DNA of 46,047 nucleotides from a virus (IMGVR_UViG_3300020020_000065:1-46047), one strand, 5' to 3'. Positions 1,264-8,364 are shown, counted from the first letter of the stretch. The notes: generated from the sequence alone by a model not told the origin. Program-made: numbers and translations.

Positions 1264-1330
1264 AGCGCCACAAAAACAGGCTTTGCAGCGCGATTCAAGT
1301 TTCCCGGCTAGTCGGATAGCCTAAAAGCAG

Positions 1331-1356
1331 AAAGGCGCGCTCTAGAGCGCGCCTTT
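1331..1356 (-). terminator. Intrinsic terminator after the CobT-like gene
   Basis: A perfect 26-bp palindrome with 12-bp arms (AAAGGCGCGCTC and its complement) is followed on the minus strand by a T-rich run (CTTTCTGCTTTT). It starts 28 bp after the stop of the VWA gene and is the natural end of the cobS/67-aa/cobT transcript. Confidence 0.75.
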
Positions 1357-1383
1357 CAGGCTTTGCGGGCAGGTCGCGGGCGA

Positions 1384-3228
1384 CTAGGCGCTTTCGCGCT
1401 CCAAGGCGCGAACAAGAACGCCTAAGCCTGCGCTGGCAATATCGTCAGGCTTGCATGAGACCGCCAAGCTAAATCCGTCATGGGAAGGAATCCCGATGCA
1501 AAGCGCCACGGTCTCGACATCCATCCGCCTTGCATAGTCGCAAGCTTTGCGCACCATGATACCGCCTGAATCGCAATCGCCGTCAGATACCACAAACAGG
1601 ATCTTCCGCTTGTTTGGCGCGCGCGCCGCAAGCTTCGCCGTCGCGGAAATCATGCAGGAGGAAAGCGGCGTGGATCCGCCTGCGGTCAATCCAAGGCGCG
1701 CAAGGCGCTTTAGGACGATGGGAAGCGTAGGCGTTTCGCTGGTCGCCTTGACAGTCTCGAATTCTGTCGAGGAAAACGACAGGATATCGTTTTTGACGCC
1801 TACGCTTTGCGCCGCCTGCGCGATTGTCAGCGCGAGAGTCGACGCCGCCCATGCGTAAGCTCCCGACATGGATCCGCTATGGTCTAGCAAAACGGTTATC
1901 TCCGTTTCATAGCCGCTGGAAAAGGTTCGCCTAGCGTAAACGCCTTCCGTCTGACCTGCGCCTATGCGCGCCATTGCAGAACGGTCTAGGCGACCGCTAG
2001 GGCGATTGCGCTCATAAGTTTCGTTATCCGCCGCTTTCAAAACGCGCGCGACCTGCGCCTTAAGCTTTCCGGCGCGCAAGGCGTTTTGCGACAGCGCGGC
2101 CACGCTAGCCGTTGGCTCTTTCATCCAGACGCTTTCCATCGCTGGCCGCGCCACGCCTGCGCTGCGCTGCGCCTTGCGGATTGCTTCCGCCATGACCGAC
2201 TCTTTCGAAGCGTTCACGGGATTCCGCTTTGCGCCTTGCGCGGACTCTTTGATTTCATCCGATACGGGATCCATCTCGACAGCGCGCATTTGATCGAAGT
2301 CAGCGGTCAGGTCTGAATCGCCGCTTCCGCCTGCGCTGTTGCCTGACTCGCCTTGTTCGCCATTAGGAGCGCCGCTGGAGACCGGCGCGGGCGCTGCGCT
2401 ATCCTCTTCCGGCTTATCGCCTTCCTGCGCTTCTACGGTCTCCGCTGCGCCGCTGTCGGCCGTTTCCGTTTCACTGTCGCTATCGACAGGCGCGCTGTCC
2501 TGCTTTTCGCCTTCCGGCTTTGACTTGTCGCCTTTGCCGCTGTCGCCTTCTGGCTTGTCTCCCGGCTTAGGCGCAAGGCGCGCTTTCAAGGCGCGCACGA
2601 TGTCCAGAATATCGTTTGTGCTTTGCGCCTTGCTAACCTGCGCCATGACATCAGCGACCAAGGCCGACATAGCAGGCGAAAGCTTGTCTAGCTGCGCCTG
2701 CGCTTCCGGGAGATTGTAGCCGCAAACGTGGACGCGACCGGCCATTGCCAGCAACCAAGGCAAGTCTTTCATGTCGTTTGGATTGTAGCTAGCCGGAAGC
2801 GCGGCCACGCAATGCGACAGCAAAGCGTTTAGAACCTTGGTCGAATTTGCCGCGATAGCCGCATGATTGAATTTAGTCTCAATGCGCACGTCTTCCAGCG
2901 CATTGACCAGAACGTGGATCCGCTCACGAACAGCGGTATGCCAAGCGGTTTCGTCAGTGTAGAGCGCATGGCACAATTCGTGAAGGAAATAGCCGGTCCA
3001 GCGGTCCAGCTCTTCCTTGGATAGGCGAGTCGCGCTGGCCATGGCCGGAAACTTGACTTCAACGTCAATCGCGCCGGTCCATGCGTTTTTAAAATGTTTG
3101 ATGCTGGCAGTTCCCGATACGCTATCGATGCGCGCGCCAACGTTTCCGGCCTTTTCGCCTGCTATCGTCAGGAAGGCGCGAATATTCATTTCCATCGCGT
3201 CCAAGGCGTCTGTCACTAAAACTTGCAT
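1384..3228 (-). CDS. cobT: CobT-like VWA-domain protein with HExxH motif
   Basis: This 614-aa protein has three parts. The N-terminal domain carries HELCHALYTD (His83, Glu84, His87) and then NALEDVRIE (109-117), the arrangement of a gluzincin-like HExxH site with a downstream Glu. An acidic, Ser/Pro-rich linker runs from about 225 to 330. The C-terminal von Willebrand A domain has a full MIDAS: DHSGS (Asp449, Ser451, Ser453), Thr in GGSTPL (about 520) and Asp in VSDGD (about 549). The architecture matches CobT, the partner of the MoxR-type AAA+ ATPase CobS in aerobic cobaltochelatase, and the CobS-like gene is just upstream. No CobN or other cobalamin gene is present, so the pair more likely remodels another target. 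The leader GGAGAGAACAA-ATG is a strong ribosome binding site. Confidence 0.85.
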   Translation of the reverse strand: MQVLVTDALDAMEMNIRAFLTIAGEKAGNVGARIDSVSGTASIKHFKNAWTGAIDVEVKFPAMASATRLSKEELDRWTGYFLHELCHALYTDETAWHTAVRERIHVLVNALEDVRIETKFNHAAIAANSTKVLNALLSHCVAALPASYNPNDMKDLPWLLAMAGRVHVCGYNLPEAQAQLDKLSPAMSALVADVMAQVSKAQSTNDILDIVRALKARLAPKPGDKPEGDSGKGDKSKPEGEKQDSAPVDSDSETETADSGAAETVEAQEGDKPEEDSAAPAPVSSGAPNGEQGESGNSAGGSGDSDLTADFDQMRAVEMDPVSDEIKESAQGAKRNPVNASKESVMAEAIRKAQRSAGVARPAMESVWMKEPTASVAALSQNALRAGKLKAQVARVLKAADNETYERNRPSGRLDRSAMARIGAGQTEGVYARRTFSSGYETEITVLLDHSGSMSGAYAWAASTLALTIAQAAQSVGVKNDILSFSSTEFETVKATSETPTLPIVLKRLARLGLTAGGSTPLSSCMISATAKLAARAPNKRKILFVVSDGDCDSGGIMVRKACDYARRMDVETVALCIGIPSHDGFSLAVSCKPDDIASAGLGVLVRALERESA

Positions 3229-3258
3229 TTGTTCTCTCCGTTGTTTGGTCAGGTCAAT

Positions 3259-3462
3259 TTAAAGCGCGCGATATCCCGCAAAGCCGGATCCGAAATAATT
3301 CTTGGCCGCGCGGCTAGATGTATAAATCAGTTTTTGACGCAGCAAAGCCTTGATAGCTTTCTGCACGTCTTCAAGCTTTACGCCTCCAACCTTAGCTTCG
3401 AAATTAGCGTAAATTTCCCGGCGTTTGGCGATTTCTAAAAGCTTTTGTTCATAAGCGGTCAT
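3259..3462 (-). CDS. Small 67-aa protein between CobS- and CobT-like genes
   Basis: I place the start at ATG 3462 (MTAYEQKLLEIAKRREIY...) because CGGAGAGAATCGAA gives a good ribosome binding site there; a longer frame starting at 3525 has none. The 67-aa product is basic and helical, with VKLEDVQKAIKALLRQKLIY (residues 28-47) resembling the helix-rich part of a small winged-helix or replication-accessory fold, but I do not recognise a family. It has its own promoter candidate (3508-3536) and is followed after 30 bp by the VWA gene, so the two are probably co-transcribed. A role as regulator or adaptor of the AAA+/VWA pair is only a suggestion from position. Confidence 0.65.
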   Translation of the reverse strand: MTAYEQKLLEIAKRREIYANFEAKVGGVKLEDVQKAIKALLRQKLIYTSSRAAKNYFGSGFAGYRAL

Positions 3463-3507
3463 TTCGATTCTCTCCGTTTTCGGTCTCTTGCGTCTAAGCG
3501 CAAAGCG

Positions 3508-3536
3508 CTTATGCGCCAATTTCACACATGAGTCAA
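3508..3536 (-). promoter_or_regulatory. Candidate sigma70-type promoter for the 67-aa/cobT genes
   Basis: On the minus strand TTGACT (3536-3531) and CATAAG (3513-3508) are 17 bp apart, matching the -35 and -10 hexamers at 5/6 and 4/6. The -35 overlaps a 13-bp-arm palindrome (3533-3560), and the -10 overlaps a second inverted repeat, TAAGCGC-AAA-GCGCTTA (3495-3511). Both look like places for a repressor. Confidence 0.55.
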
Positions 3537-3560
3537 GCGGGAGACAAGTCTCCCGCTTGA
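3533..3560. repeat. 28-bp palindrome built on GGGAGAC, overlapping the -35
   Basis: Arms TCAAGCGGGAGAC (3533-3545) and its exact complement (3548-3560) flank an AA centre. It lies 17 bp after the cobS stop, so as RNA it could also end the cobS transcript, although no T-run follows. Its overlap with TTGACT and its GAGAC/GTCTC core make it a good operator candidate. Confidence 0.8.
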
Positions 3561-3576
3561 TATTGGCGAATTAGCC

Positions 3577-5010
3577 TTAGTCCTGCGCTAGGTCGGGAAA
3601 GCTTTTGCGCGCATCGACCTGTTGCGGCGCGTCTGACAGTGGCGCGGAAGCTTTCCCGCCCATGTCTCCCGTAAAGGCCGCGACATCGAAGGCGGCGCTG
3701 AAATGCTGGCGCAGCGCTTCCCGTTCTGCTTCCGGCAATCTGGACAGGACAGTGTCATGGAAAGATTCCGCGACATCGAATCCTCTTCCGGCCATGTTCA
3801 CGAAAGCGACCATCCGGCGCAGCGACAGCGGCCTAGCGTCAAAGCCGGAAAGTTTTCTTGCGCTGTTGACGAAAGCAACCACACGGTCACAGGCGCTGCG
3901 CGGCGCTGTTGTCCGATTAGCCAGCGCCTGCGCTTCGCGGTCGGGCGACATGTAGTCGACATAGAGCATGGCCGCGAAGCGGTCGACCAAGGCGGCATTA
4001 GCCTGTTGCGTCCCCGCATAAAGGCCGCTTTCGTCGCCATAGCCACGCGTATTGTCGGCAGCGCAAAAGGCGACACCATCAGCGCAGCGGACCTGCTCCC
4101 CCGTTGCAAGATTCAGGTAGCGCTCATCCAAGAGCGTTTGCAGCACCATCGCGATTCCGGGCGGGCAGGCGGTAATTTCGTCTAGCAGGATAATGGTTCC
4201 GGGCTTGCGGATTGCCTGCGTCAGAATCCCGTCTTTCCATCCGGTATTTCCGTTTTTGAGACCATCGGATCCAAACAGGTCAATGGGATCCGTTGTGCGG
4301 TTGAAAGCGATTCGAACAAACGGTCTCCCGGTGCGCGCGGCATACTGCGTTGGGGCGGTGGTTTTACCTGTGCCAGCCGGACCGGCTGTCCAGAAATATT
4401 CGCCATTCTCGACATAACCGGTCAGTTTCGCGATTAGCGCAGGATCCGCGACATAGTAGGGATCCACGATAGGCGCTGCGCTCGAATCCCAACGCGAGAC
4501 CGGAAGCGCCGCATGTTTGTGGCGCGGGAATCCCCAAAGCTTGCCAAAGGTGGTCTGCTCGATTCTGGCCGCATCGTTTGAGACAGGCGCAGCGACGACA
4601 GCGCCTGACTCGTCGACGTGAACCGTCACGGTCTTTTCAATCTCGATTGCGGGCTTAAGCGCCGCCATGACGATAGGCGCAAGCGCGGTCTCTACCTGAC
4701 CTAGCAGGACAGGCGACAGGAAAGGCCGCAAGGGCGACAGGACCGTTTCCGCTAGGTCAGGCGCGGACTCTGTCTCAACAGACGCGACAGGCATTGCAGC
4801 GGTTTCCATTTCTTCGATTGTGCCAGCGGTCGCAACCATGTCGCGGACCTGATCCATGAGTCCGAATTCCTGCGCCGCCTTAAGCGCCAACTCCGTTGTC
4901 AGATCTCTTGAAGCGAAATTACCATTGAAGGCGCGAAAGCCATCAAAGTCAGGATGATTGCGAATCATGGCGCGGACAGCATCGCGGACATTTTTCGAAA
5001 GTTTCAACAT
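3577..5010 (-). CDS. cobS: CobS-like MoxR-family AAA+ ATPase
   Basis: This 477-aa protein has about 200 N-terminal residues without a recognisable domain, then a MoxR/CobS-type AAA+ module: Walker A GPAGTGKT (210-217), Walker B IILLDE (273-278), a sensor-1-like AADNT and a later Arg-rich sensor-2 region. The segment 'NRTTDPIDLFGSDGLKNG' after Walker A is characteristic of CobS. CobS hydrolyses ATP with its VWA partner CobT to drive cobalt insertion by CobN. Related phage cobS genes are known, and MoxR-VWA pairs in general act as ATP-driven remodelling chaperones. The start at 5010 has the strong leader CGGAGAGAACAA-ATG, shared with the CobT-like gene. Word usage (many GCGC, GGATCC) differs from the rest of the window, suggesting separate origin. 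Confidence 0.9.
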   Translation of the reverse strand: MLKLSKNVRDAVRAMIRNHPDFDGFRAFNGNFASRDLTTELALKAAQEFGLMDQVRDMVATAGTIEEMETAAMPVASVETESAPDLAETVLSPLRPFLSPVLLGQVETALAPIVMAALKPAIEIEKTVTVHVDESGAVVAAPVSNDAARIEQTTFGKLWGFPRHKHAALPVSRWDSSAAPIVDPYYVADPALIAKLTGYVENGEYFWTAGPAGTGKTTAPTQYAARTGRPFVRIAFNRTTDPIDLFGSDGLKNGNTGWKDGILTQAIRKPGTIILLDEITACPPGIAMVLQTLLDERYLNLATGEQVRCADGVAFCAADNTRGYGDESGLYAGTQQANAALVDRFAAMLYVDYMSPDREAQALANRTTAPRSACDRVVAFVNSARKLSGFDARPLSLRRMVAFVNMAGRGFDVAESFHDTVLSRLPEAEREALRQHFSAAFDVAAFTGDMGGKASAPLSDAPQQVDARKSFPDLAQD

Positions 5011-5062
5011 TTGTTCTCTCCGTTTGGTTTGTTGGCGGCCTTGGTCGCTGGCCGGAATTTGT

Positions 5063-5091
5063 GATTTAGAGACATGTTCGCCCTATGTCAA
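5063..5091 (-). promoter_or_regulatory. Candidate promoter of the cobS-like gene, flanked by GAGAC sites
   Basis: On the minus strand a perfect TTGACA (5091-5086) is followed after 17 bp by TAAATC (5068-5063). A GTCTC (5092-5096) abuts the -35 and a GAGAC (5069-5073) abuts the -10, so the two inverted copies bracket the core promoter. The -10 is poor, so confidence is moderate. Confidence 0.5.
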
Positions 5092-5190
5092 GTCTCCCAT
5101 GTCTCTTTTGGTTTGCGTTTTTGGAAAGCGCGCCAGGTCGCAACCATCAAAAATTTCGTTCTTGGTTTGTGCTTTTGGGAGACATGAGCC

Positions 5191-5233
5191 GGGAGACGGG
5201 GAGACGGGAGACGGGAGACGGGAGACGGGAGAC
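5191..5233. repeat. Tandem array of GGGAGAC heptamers
   Basis: Six consecutive copies of GGGAGAC (one with an extra G) form a direct repeat, with a seventh copy at 5262-5268. The unit contains the GAGAC word that is over-represented across the whole window. Direct repeats of a 7-mer upstream of a promoter suggest multiple protein binding sites. Slippage during copying is an alternative. Confidence 0.85.
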
Positions 5234-5542
5234 CGTCACGCGCTGCGCGCTGCGCCTGCGCGGGAGACCGCGCGCTGACGCGCGGCGCGCGCTGGGCGCG
5301 AGCCTACCTTTTAGGCCCGCGCGCCGCACCAGGGGGTACTCACGGGCGAAAACTAATATAGGAAAACAGACCGGAATTTTTGTCTGGGCCAAACGTGTGG
5401 AACAGGGCCGGGGGTTGGTGGGTGGCCTTGGGGAAATTCCCAGGGGGAGCGCCAGGGCGTAGAAGCGAGGTGGCCTTGCTTCCTGTCTCCGGCAGTCTCC
5501 CGGTTAATTCAGGATCTCGGAATCACCCCCCCAGGGGTCGGA

Positions 5543-5991: not shown

Positions 5992-8349
5992 CTATTTTAC
6001 CCCCTTCATAACCACGAGAGGAACCTTGCCATGGCCACTCCCATCGCTCCCCTCCACGGTCTCCACCCAGCCCAAATCTTCCAATTTGGCAATGATTTCG
6101 TCTGCCTTCATGACGGAGACACCCAGTACCCGATGCGCCGAATTGGCTCCCGTATTCCGCGCCGTCGGGGCATACCGGCGGACCTTCTTCCCCCTCCGAA
6201 CCGCCTCTTCGATCAGGTCGCACCACGCTCGTAGAGCCGTCATATCCTCTGTTGTCTTCACGGGCCGGATAGGCTCCAATACAACCGTTTGTTGAGCCAC
6301 CATCTTGTCTGGATCCACCGCATCCCCGACCGGAATGGCCTCCGTTGTCAGTTCGTAGTAGCAGGCCACATACCTCGCCCGGTCATCATTGGCCTTCGCC
6401 ACATACTCGACCACGATGTCTCGCCCCTCCCAGCCGTAGTTCTCGACCTCTCCCCTGTTGGCCGGTGTGAGTGTCACTGCCCCCCGCACCGATCCGCCAA
6501 TGGCAAACGACCCCTTCAGCGCCACGATGGACCTGTCCTCGTCCCCGACCGATCCCTTGTTGACGTGATGGATGAACACCACGGACGCCCAGAACACCTT
6601 GGCCAGCCGATCCAGGAACTGCATGACCGGATTGATGTCCTTGGCTTGGTTCTCGTCGATCCCGGTGACCGAGGTCGCCAGCGTGTCCACCACGATCATC
6701 GCGATGTCTCTGCCGCCCTGCACCCACCCCAGCACCATTTCCAGAATTTCGAGGCACTCGAACTCCCAGCCCTTGGTGCCGTCCCAGCGCAGGAGCGTGG
6801 ACTTCAGCGGGATTACCTCGTGCGGCGGCACGACCCCAGCTAACCCATGTCTCTGCTCCCACGCCTTGAAGCGGCGCTTCATGACGTTCAGCCCGTCCTC
6901 GTTGGAAATGTAGATCACATCCCCGCCGAAGTTCATCTCGCTCTGGCCGTACCGCAGCAGGTCTTTGCGCCCGTAGGAGACAGCCAGCGACTGTTGCAGG
7001 ACCAGAAGAGACTTCCCCAGCCCCGGCATACCGCCCAACACCGACAGAACCCCGCGCTCGTAAGGAGTCATGATGGTCGGAGGGGCGACGATGTTGACGG
7101 CAGCCTCGCGGAGCGTCTGGACCTTGCCGTTCAGCCCCCAATGCGGTGTGTCTCCCGAACGGTGGTGTTTGGGCGTCACCTGCGTCTTGGCGATTTCCCT
7201 TAGCAACTCGTCGATCTTCATGCCCGCAGCCTTGGCAGCCGCCGGGCCTGAACCGGCTCCCGCAGTCGCCCCGGCGGCAGCCAGGGTCTCTGCGTCGAGG
7301 TCAGGGAACATCTCCTCGTCCCGCGCGAAAATCTTCTGCGCTTCCTGTCTCTCCGGTGAATCTACCCCATGGATCTCTTCCACGATCTTCCGCAGGGTCG
7401 TCGCTGACCCCTTGGCGCTCGAATAGGTGTCCCACGCCCGTCTGGTCTCTGCCTCGTCGTACTTGTCGGACTTCTGCGACCACTCGTCGAACTGTTCGAA
7501 CCCTTCGCCGCCCGTCGCGCCCCATGTGGCGAGGCCGGTTCTCGTCCACTCATCATAAGACCTTCCCCTGCGTGGGTCGCCGCCCTCTGGCCGGTTGTTG
7601 GGGATCAGGTCGAGCAGGGCTTTGACGTTCTCTGGAGACAGTGTCTCCCCTGCGGCGGACCCAGCCCCCGAAGCCCCAGGAGGACTTTCAGCCATGGGGT
7701 CGATCCCGAACTCGCGGCAGAACATTCCGAACGTCCACGAGTTGCCGACGTGAGTGAGCCTCGTCCTGAACCCACGCCCGTCGGGTTTCGTGTTGGTGCC
7801 GGTCGGCAGCCGGAAGTATTGCCCGACGGCATGGAGACCGGGGCCGAATATCGGGTGTCTCTTGAGAGCCTTGTAGATGAACCGCGCCTGATCCGGGGTC
7901 AGCACCGGGTCGAAGTGGTAGCCGAACTGATACCTGTCGCGCCGAGTCTCCGTCTTCCACGATGGCTCTGCCACCATATCAAAGGCGTCCTCGTCGATTT
8001 CGATGCCGTCCGTGATCGACGTGGTGCCGGGAGCAGCCGTGACTTTCTTGCCGATGTCGTCGAAGACGATGAACGGCACCGACTCGATCCTGTCGTCGTC
8101 GCGGTTGGTCAGCCCCAGCGGATAGGTCGCAGCCGTGACGTGGTGGCGCTGGTTGTCGGGGAGTTTTCGCAGGGCTTCCTCGGTGTAGTGGCCAATAACC
8201 ACCAGACCCTTGTCGCCGGGGATGGACCCCGCGAGGAACAGCCCATGCACGTCGAAACCCCCAAATGCGTCCAGAAAATCCACGCTACGCTGATTGGAGG
8301 ATGACGGCGGCTCTTGCGGAGGGGATCCGGTTGACTTATCTTCATTCAC
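5992..8349 (-). CDS. Primase-helicase (PriCT-2 plus RepA/RecA-like ATPase)
   Basis: This protein is about 785 aa. Residues 30-230 form a degenerate primase-like region. Residues about 245-330 look like a PriCT-2 primase-associated domain (SYDEWTRTGLATW... AWDTYSSAKGS). Residues about 430-640 are a RecA/RepA-type ATPase with Walker A GGMPGLGKS (444-452), Walker B AMIVVD (555-560) and FIHHVNK after it. The C-terminal 120 residues look like a winged helix. Such proteins prime and unwind phage DNA together with the family A polymerase, which is upstream in the same direction. Residue numbers count from the upstream ATG at 8364. I prefer GTG 8349 because GGAGG lies eight bases before it, while the ATG has no ribosome binding site. 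Confidence 0.85.
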   Translation of the reverse strand: MNEDKSTGSPPQEPPSSSNQRSVDFLDAFGGFDVHGLFLAGSIPGDKGLVVIGHYTEEALRKLPDNQRHHVTAATYPLGLTNRDDDRIESVPFIVFDDIGKKVTAAPGTTSITDGIEIDEDAFDMVAEPSWKTETRRDRYQFGYHFDPVLTPDQARFIYKALKRHPIFGPGLHAVGQYFRLPTGTNTKPDGRGFRTRLTHVGNSWTFGMFCREFGIDPMAESPPGASGAGSAAGETLSPENVKALLDLIPNNRPEGGDPRRGRSYDEWTRTGLATWGATGGEGFEQFDEWSQKSDKYDEAETRRAWDTYSSAKGSATTLRKIVEEIHGVDSPERQEAQKIFARDEEMFPDLDAETLAAAGATAGAGSGPAAAKAAGMKIDELLREIAKTQVTPKHHRSGDTPHWGLNGKVQTLREAAVNIVAPPTIMTPYERGVLSVLGGMPGLGKSLLVLQQSLAVSYGRKDLLRYGQSEMNFGGDVIYISNEDGLNVMKRRFKAWEQRHGLAGVVPPHEVIPLKSTLLRWDGTKGWEFECLEILEMVLGWVQGGRDIAMIVVDTLATSVTGIDENQAKDINPVMQFLDRLAKVFWASVVFIHHVNKGSVGDEDRSIVALKGSFAIGGSVRGAVTLTPANRGEVENYGWEGRDIVVEYVAKANDDRARYVACYYELTTEAIPVGDAVDPDKMVAQQTVVLEPIRPVKTTEDMTALRAWCDLIEEAVRRGKKVRRYAPTARNTGANSAHRVLGVSVMKADEIIAKLEDLGWVETVEGSDGSGHGKVPLVVMKGVK

Positions 8350-8364
8350 AGGAATGGCCTCCAT

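Follow-up and report, generated by a model that had tools for sequence, protein, structure and literature searches.

In group 2.2 jumbo phages, a MoxR-type ATPase is paired with a vWA protein that carries an N-terminal metallopeptidase (ASV44729.1 / ASV44728.2), and a role in virion assembly and processing has been proposed for the pair (Iyer 2021, PMC7824862). The same genes have been named cobST in archaeal and bacterial tailed viruses (PMC8651126) and in Microcystis phage Mae-Yong1326-1 (PMC9503304); the former study proposes hijacking of CobN, and both judge the peptidase annotation to be mistaken. The pair has been described as belonging to the core genes of T4-like cyanophages (PMC8651126) and cobS as present in all complete cyanomyovirus genomes (PMC2984593). 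Phage cobS is often listed as a marine-virus auxiliary metabolic gene and used to suggest a viral boost of host vitamin B12. Here we analysed such a pair in IMGVR_UViG_3300020020_000065, a 46,047-base virus record (hereafter the window), in which open reading frames (ORFs) for a CobS-like, a 67-residue and a CobT-like protein all lie on the minus strand. We estimate a probability of about two in three that this operon encodes an ATP-driven protein-processing machine, consisting of a MoxR motor and a predicted VWA-metallopeptidase, and not a cobaltochelatase. The pair is a member of the already described MoxR plus metallopeptidase-vWA kind. Our literature search found no report tying CobT to an HExxH motif, which is not proof of novelty, and no experimental evidence on viral cobST function.

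The CobS/MoxR-type AAA+ ATPase (477 residues, 3577..5010; all ORFs, domains and motifs of the operon are given on the minus strand) has an N-terminal region of ~190 residues followed by the AAA+ domain, and matches AAA_5 (E 8.6e-20) and phrog_249, ‘porphyrin biosynthesis’ (E 9e-51). Across 95 aligned viral homologues, G210, G215 and K216 of the Walker A motif (GPAGTGKT, residues 210-217, 4360..4383) are found in 95/95 and G213 in 94/95, while D277 and E278 of Walker B (IILLDE, residues 273-278, 4177..4194) occur in all 95; sensor 1 N320 and R344/R398 are intact and invariant or nearly so. The partner, a predicted metallopeptidase-VWA protein called ‘CobT’ in other annotations (614 residues, 1384..3228), gives weak matches to CobT_C (E 2.7e-8) and VWA (E 4e-6). 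It comprises a predicted N-terminal zincin domain (residues 1-222, 2563..3228), an acidic linker predicted to be disordered (residues 232-303, 2320..2535; AlphaFold2 predicted local distance difference test, pLDDT, <50) and a VWA half. The DxSxS of the metal ion-dependent adhesion site (MIDAS; residues 449-453, 1870..1884) is present in 43/43 viral homologues having the region, and the further MIDAS residues T520 and D549 are also in place. Upstream of it lies a GRLD motif (residues 412-415, 1984..1995), with G412 in 43/43 homologues and R413 and D415 in 37/43 each. Intact AAA+ catalytic residues next to a VWA protein with a MIDAS are the features of a MoxR-vWA chaperone pair, and the two genes lie close together on the same strand in 91 of the 91 loci that hold both. 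The original prediction had placed a CobS/CobT-like pair with intact ATPase and MIDAS residues, and a 67-residue gene between its members, at 1384-5010, and on each of these points it was correct. In two viral loci (L011, L012) the metallopeptidase and VWA halves are on separate ORFs, resembling the HHTV-2 split (PMC8651126).

The N-terminal half of the ‘CobT’ protein also carries an HExxH...NxxEDxxxE signature that had not been remarked upon in the original prediction. Its first part, HELCH (residues 83-87, 2968..2982), lies in a helix spanning residues 71-90; its second, N109-x-x-E112-D113-x-x-x-E117 (2878..2904), lies on the presumed helix of the third zinc ligand (residues 105-123). H83, E84 and H87, and likewise each of the four residues of the second part, are found in 44/44 viral homologues, which share a mean identity of 24% and in which the only invariant positions are A41, H83, E84, H87, N109, E112, D113 and E117. 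In HExxH zincins the Glu acts as the catalytic base and is not a metal ligand, and the invariance of E84 therefore argues for catalysis.

Sampling bias was considered in these counts. A search for relatives with the window CobT alone as query returned no loci, and a three-row alignment of it with Mae-Yong1326-1 and Roseobacter phage CRP-810 (invariant at H83, E84, H87, D92, N109, L111, E112, D113 and E117) was used as the query that did return them. The loci from this search (L004-L017) were picked by patterns beside the zincin motif and are excluded from the unbiased HExxH count, for which loci were fetched by CobS alone. A partner ORF was present in 75/80 of the latter. HExxH occurs in 65/66 distinct partner ORFs of this set, 62 of which match the full zincin pattern; the sole partner lacking it (L066) starts at the locus edge and is missing its N-terminus. 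A conserved HExxH with a downstream acidic ligand, as expected of a zincin metallopeptidase, is thus found in both sets.

We next compare the pair with aerobic cobaltochelatase CobS/CobT (TIGR01650/TIGR01651; PDB 9uka), which shares the AAA+ and VWA domains and a homologous N-domain. The CobT-like protein scores 36.9 bits against TIGR01651 (cut-off 759) and the CobS-like protein 88 bits against TIGR01650 (cut-off 558.6), so that neither qualifies as an equivalog. CobN (PF02514) was found in 0/52 virus records with the pair, window included, some of these records being fragments; the window has no cobalamin riboswitch or any other Rfam match, and PHROG scans of ~30 window ORFs revealed no cobalamin genes besides the pair. 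For true CobT we sampled 80 cellular loci, almost all from Hyphomicrobiales, together with a phylum-wide set (48/200 genomes above the CobT cut-off), and took 127 CobT ORFs, 121 of them distinct. None of the 121 has an HExxH within its first 180 residues. The viral and cellular N-domains are nevertheless homologous (hhalign 97.4%, E 1e-11, 194 columns), and Pfam CobT PF06213 is matched by 19/44 viral N-domains. In the alignment, H83, E84 and H87 are matched by different residues in CobT, N109 by D and D113 mostly by Q, with E112 shared. In an 89-row unrooted tree, the 25 cellular CobT sequences form a single clade (Shimodaira–Hasegawa-like approximate likelihood ratio test 100) that excludes the window, which is nested among viral proteins and adjoins L019. 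Since the pair failed each test of a defining cobaltochelatase feature that was applied, it ought not to be classed as one. The same cut-offs and missing CobN bear out the original view of a MoxR-VWA remodelling pair in a virus with neither CobN nor any other recognised cobalamin gene.

It has been argued in print that these are genuine cobaltochelatase subunits which use host CobN as partner and raise cobalamin during infection (PMC8651126, cyanophage papers), and the homology of the AAA+, VWA and even N-terminal domains to CobS/CobT speaks for this. Set against it are the scores far under the equivalog cut-offs, the separate clade and the lack of CobN; in addition, zincin residues kept in viruses and absent from every true CobT sampled indicate a different selected function, and we consider a cobaltochelatase very improbable. 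The pair of Mae-Yong1326-1, which is 36% (CobS) and 28% (CobT) identical to that of the window, has the same HExxH...NxLED motif. The residue pattern favours a metallopeptidase over the cobaltochelatase reading of PMC8651126 and PMC9503304.

As to how the two families are related, CobT and the viral proteins may share an AAA+-coupled zinc protease ancestor, with the active site kept in viral and plasmid lineages and CobT a domesticated, catalytically dead branch; we hold this tentatively, at a little short of even odds. On the unrooted tree, loss in CobT and gain in viruses are both possible, loss being the simpler reading. A viral N-domain profile matched 2/200 genomes of the phylum from which CobT was sampled, both with HExxH. 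CobT-like proteins of cellular origin that score under the CobT cut-off (L213, L214, L215) branch as sister to true CobT, and they too have no HExxH at the active position.

Structural modelling was performed with AlphaFold2, using window and IMG/VR rows. The full-length VWA protein reached a mean pLDDT of 83, and the N-terminal domain alone a pLDDT of 96.5 with a predicted template modelling score of 0.91. In Foldseek searches of the PDB, the top match of the VWA half was the VWA domain of NorD in its complex with NorQ (E 9e-10), the midasin MIDAS was also matched (E 8e-8), and the best 50 matches of the full model were all VWA-type. For the N-domain, the significant matches in a viral Foldseek library (E down to 1.2e-13) were CobT/VWA-type, unnamed or uncharacterised phage proteins; entries labelled M34, SprT, lethal factor or ‘zincin protease’ followed below significance. 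Some points weigh against a metallopeptidase here: the N-domain alone had nothing significant in the PDB (best E 0.6, a DUF885 protein), the viral N-domains have no significant Pfam peptidase match, and the putative zincin fold is deduced from the motif and the predicted helix placement. As a possible bridge we considered DUF2201_N, which is known to be a metallopeptidase-VWA family, and rejected it: its sole match was an HExxH protease that looks unrelated and has no VWA, and its hhalign alignment covered just 25 columns.

Given these observations, the pair is best read as remodelling or cleaving a protein target, with cleavage predicted from the conservation of the motif. With the VWA partner itself a predicted zinc metallopeptidase, the likely mechanism is no longer remodelling only but remodelling together with cleavage. 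The motor mechanics can be sketched by analogy with NorQ/NorD of nitric oxide reductase (PDB 9qh6; PMC13036017). The CobS/MoxR-type protein would assemble as a hexamer, on which the partner VWA domain would dock with a finger inserted into the pore, as NorD does with NorQ; the GRLD region could be this finger, being likened to that of NorD (PMC13036017). The MIDAS metal would then grip an acidic residue of the target protein, and ATP hydrolysis would act through the disordered linker to twist or pull the VWA domain with respect to the N-terminal one. Finally, the N-terminal zincin, if the motif is a guide, would cleave the strained target. The likeness to NorQ/NorD covers the motor-adaptor logic and the VWA half, to which the fold match is confined; the passages of PMC13036017 consulted mention no HExxH zincin domain.

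A non-proteolytic chaperone pair is a further reading, in which the metal held by the HExxH would be structural or delivered and the module would only remodel or metallate its target, as NorQD does with nitric oxide reductase. In favour of it, the C-terminal half has NorD VWA complexed with NorQ as its best structural match, and metal insertion can be driven by MoxR-VWA pairs (PMC13036017). We regard this as unlikely, as E84, N109, D113 and E117 are invariant in addition to the histidines, which is the signature of a catalytic zincin and not of a simple metal site.

If the pair is a protein-processing machine, its target may be virion or assembly proteins of the phage itself, the module acting as maturation protease and assembly chaperone; Iyer 2021 put forward such a role for the jumbo phages. 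Those pairs resemble the present one, by their published description, in having an adjacent MoxR-type ATPase and a VWA protein with an N-terminal metallopeptidase, and differ in that here the virus record is 46 kb and an extra gene lies between the two. A MoxR-VWA pair of the virus ATV has been implicated in tail development (PMC7824862), and the scanned window ORFs included no recognisable prohead protease, many structural ORFs being without a match. Virion mass spectrometry of cyanophage S-CREM1 detected 14 proteins, and the text is silent on whether the MoxR product is included. Such a target is however doubtful, since the module adjoins a primase-helicase gene (5992-8364 in the window), and not structural genes, in the window and in L005, L006 and L019; the portal and terminase genes are in the 33-38 kb region of the window. 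In other relatives, terminase and primase flank the pair. Plasmids also speak against it: in Pseudomonas nitroreducens plasmid pPniHBP1_2 (NZ_CP049141.1; L227), a VWA protein with HECSH...NALEDIRIE is encoded two genes from an AAA ATPase. This cluster shares with the phage pair the AAA ATPase and the VWA protein with an HExxH-type motif, and differs in its intervening DUF3150 gene, its position upstream of traN and its long tree branch. In all, 90 plasmid records matched the window VWA protein at E <=0.01. That plasmids, too, encode such a VWA-metallopeptidase close to an AAA ATPase hints at a host or replication/transfer protein as the target sooner than at one confined to the virion. A host protein or defence complex, attacked in host takeover or counter-defence, was among the targets named in the original prediction, next to the phage's proteins, and would fit a module common to phages and plasmids, both of which face the same host defences, but no meaningful defence-family match was obtained with PADLOC and the core status in T4-like cyanophages would be unusual for a counter-defence gene; we entertain this option with some scepticism.

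Turning to the layout of the operon, an identical ten-base leader, ACGGAGAGAA, is present at 3232-3241, 3468-3477 and 5014-5023, ahead of cobT, the 67-residue gene and cobS, respectively, with one further exact copy in the whole window. That ACGGAGAGAA precedes all three starts and is nearly absent otherwise supports a single operon, and the element could be a translational control element common to the three genes. The small ORF (3259..3462, no family match) encodes 67 residues from the ATG at 3462, or 88 only with an upstream GTG start; the ATG is supported as the start by the exact ACGGAGAGAA leader that precedes it. Neither the phage collection nor any of the fetched loci gave a significant match to its product, and in the nearest relatives the 29-105 bp that separate cobS from cobT hold no small gene. 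As the 67-residue gene is not conserved, a conserved trio, for which the original prediction had suggested a search in other phages, is not supported.

On the minus strand, a terminator-like hairpin 3′ of the VWA gene (1330..1357) has a 12-pair stem followed by a T-rich tail; patterns of this type are only slightly commoner in the window than in shuffles. A long leader of ~530 bp without a recognised gene lies 5′ of cobS (5011..5542, minus strand) and contains about eight tandem GGGAGAC units at 5177-5233. GGGAGAC occurs 63 times in the window versus 9.7 in shuffles, and the hexamer GGAGAC/GTCTCC 184 times on both strands versus 80 expected under a third-order Markov model. The density of GGAGAC is 3.2 and 2.1 per kb in the close relatives L018 and L019, 1.2 in L054 and <0.8 in the other loci checked. 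No terminal repeats of at least 15 bases were found in the window, which may be incomplete.

If the partner of cobS is a conserved zinc protease, the vitamin B12-boost reading of this gene probably fails in many genomes, and a protein-processing machine widespread in phages has been misfiled. Should the shared protease ancestry also be true, the whole class of viral auxiliary metabolic genes called ‘cobST’ would encode ATP-driven proteases. Such a protease would also suggest an origin for the N-terminal domain of the vitamin B12 enzyme.

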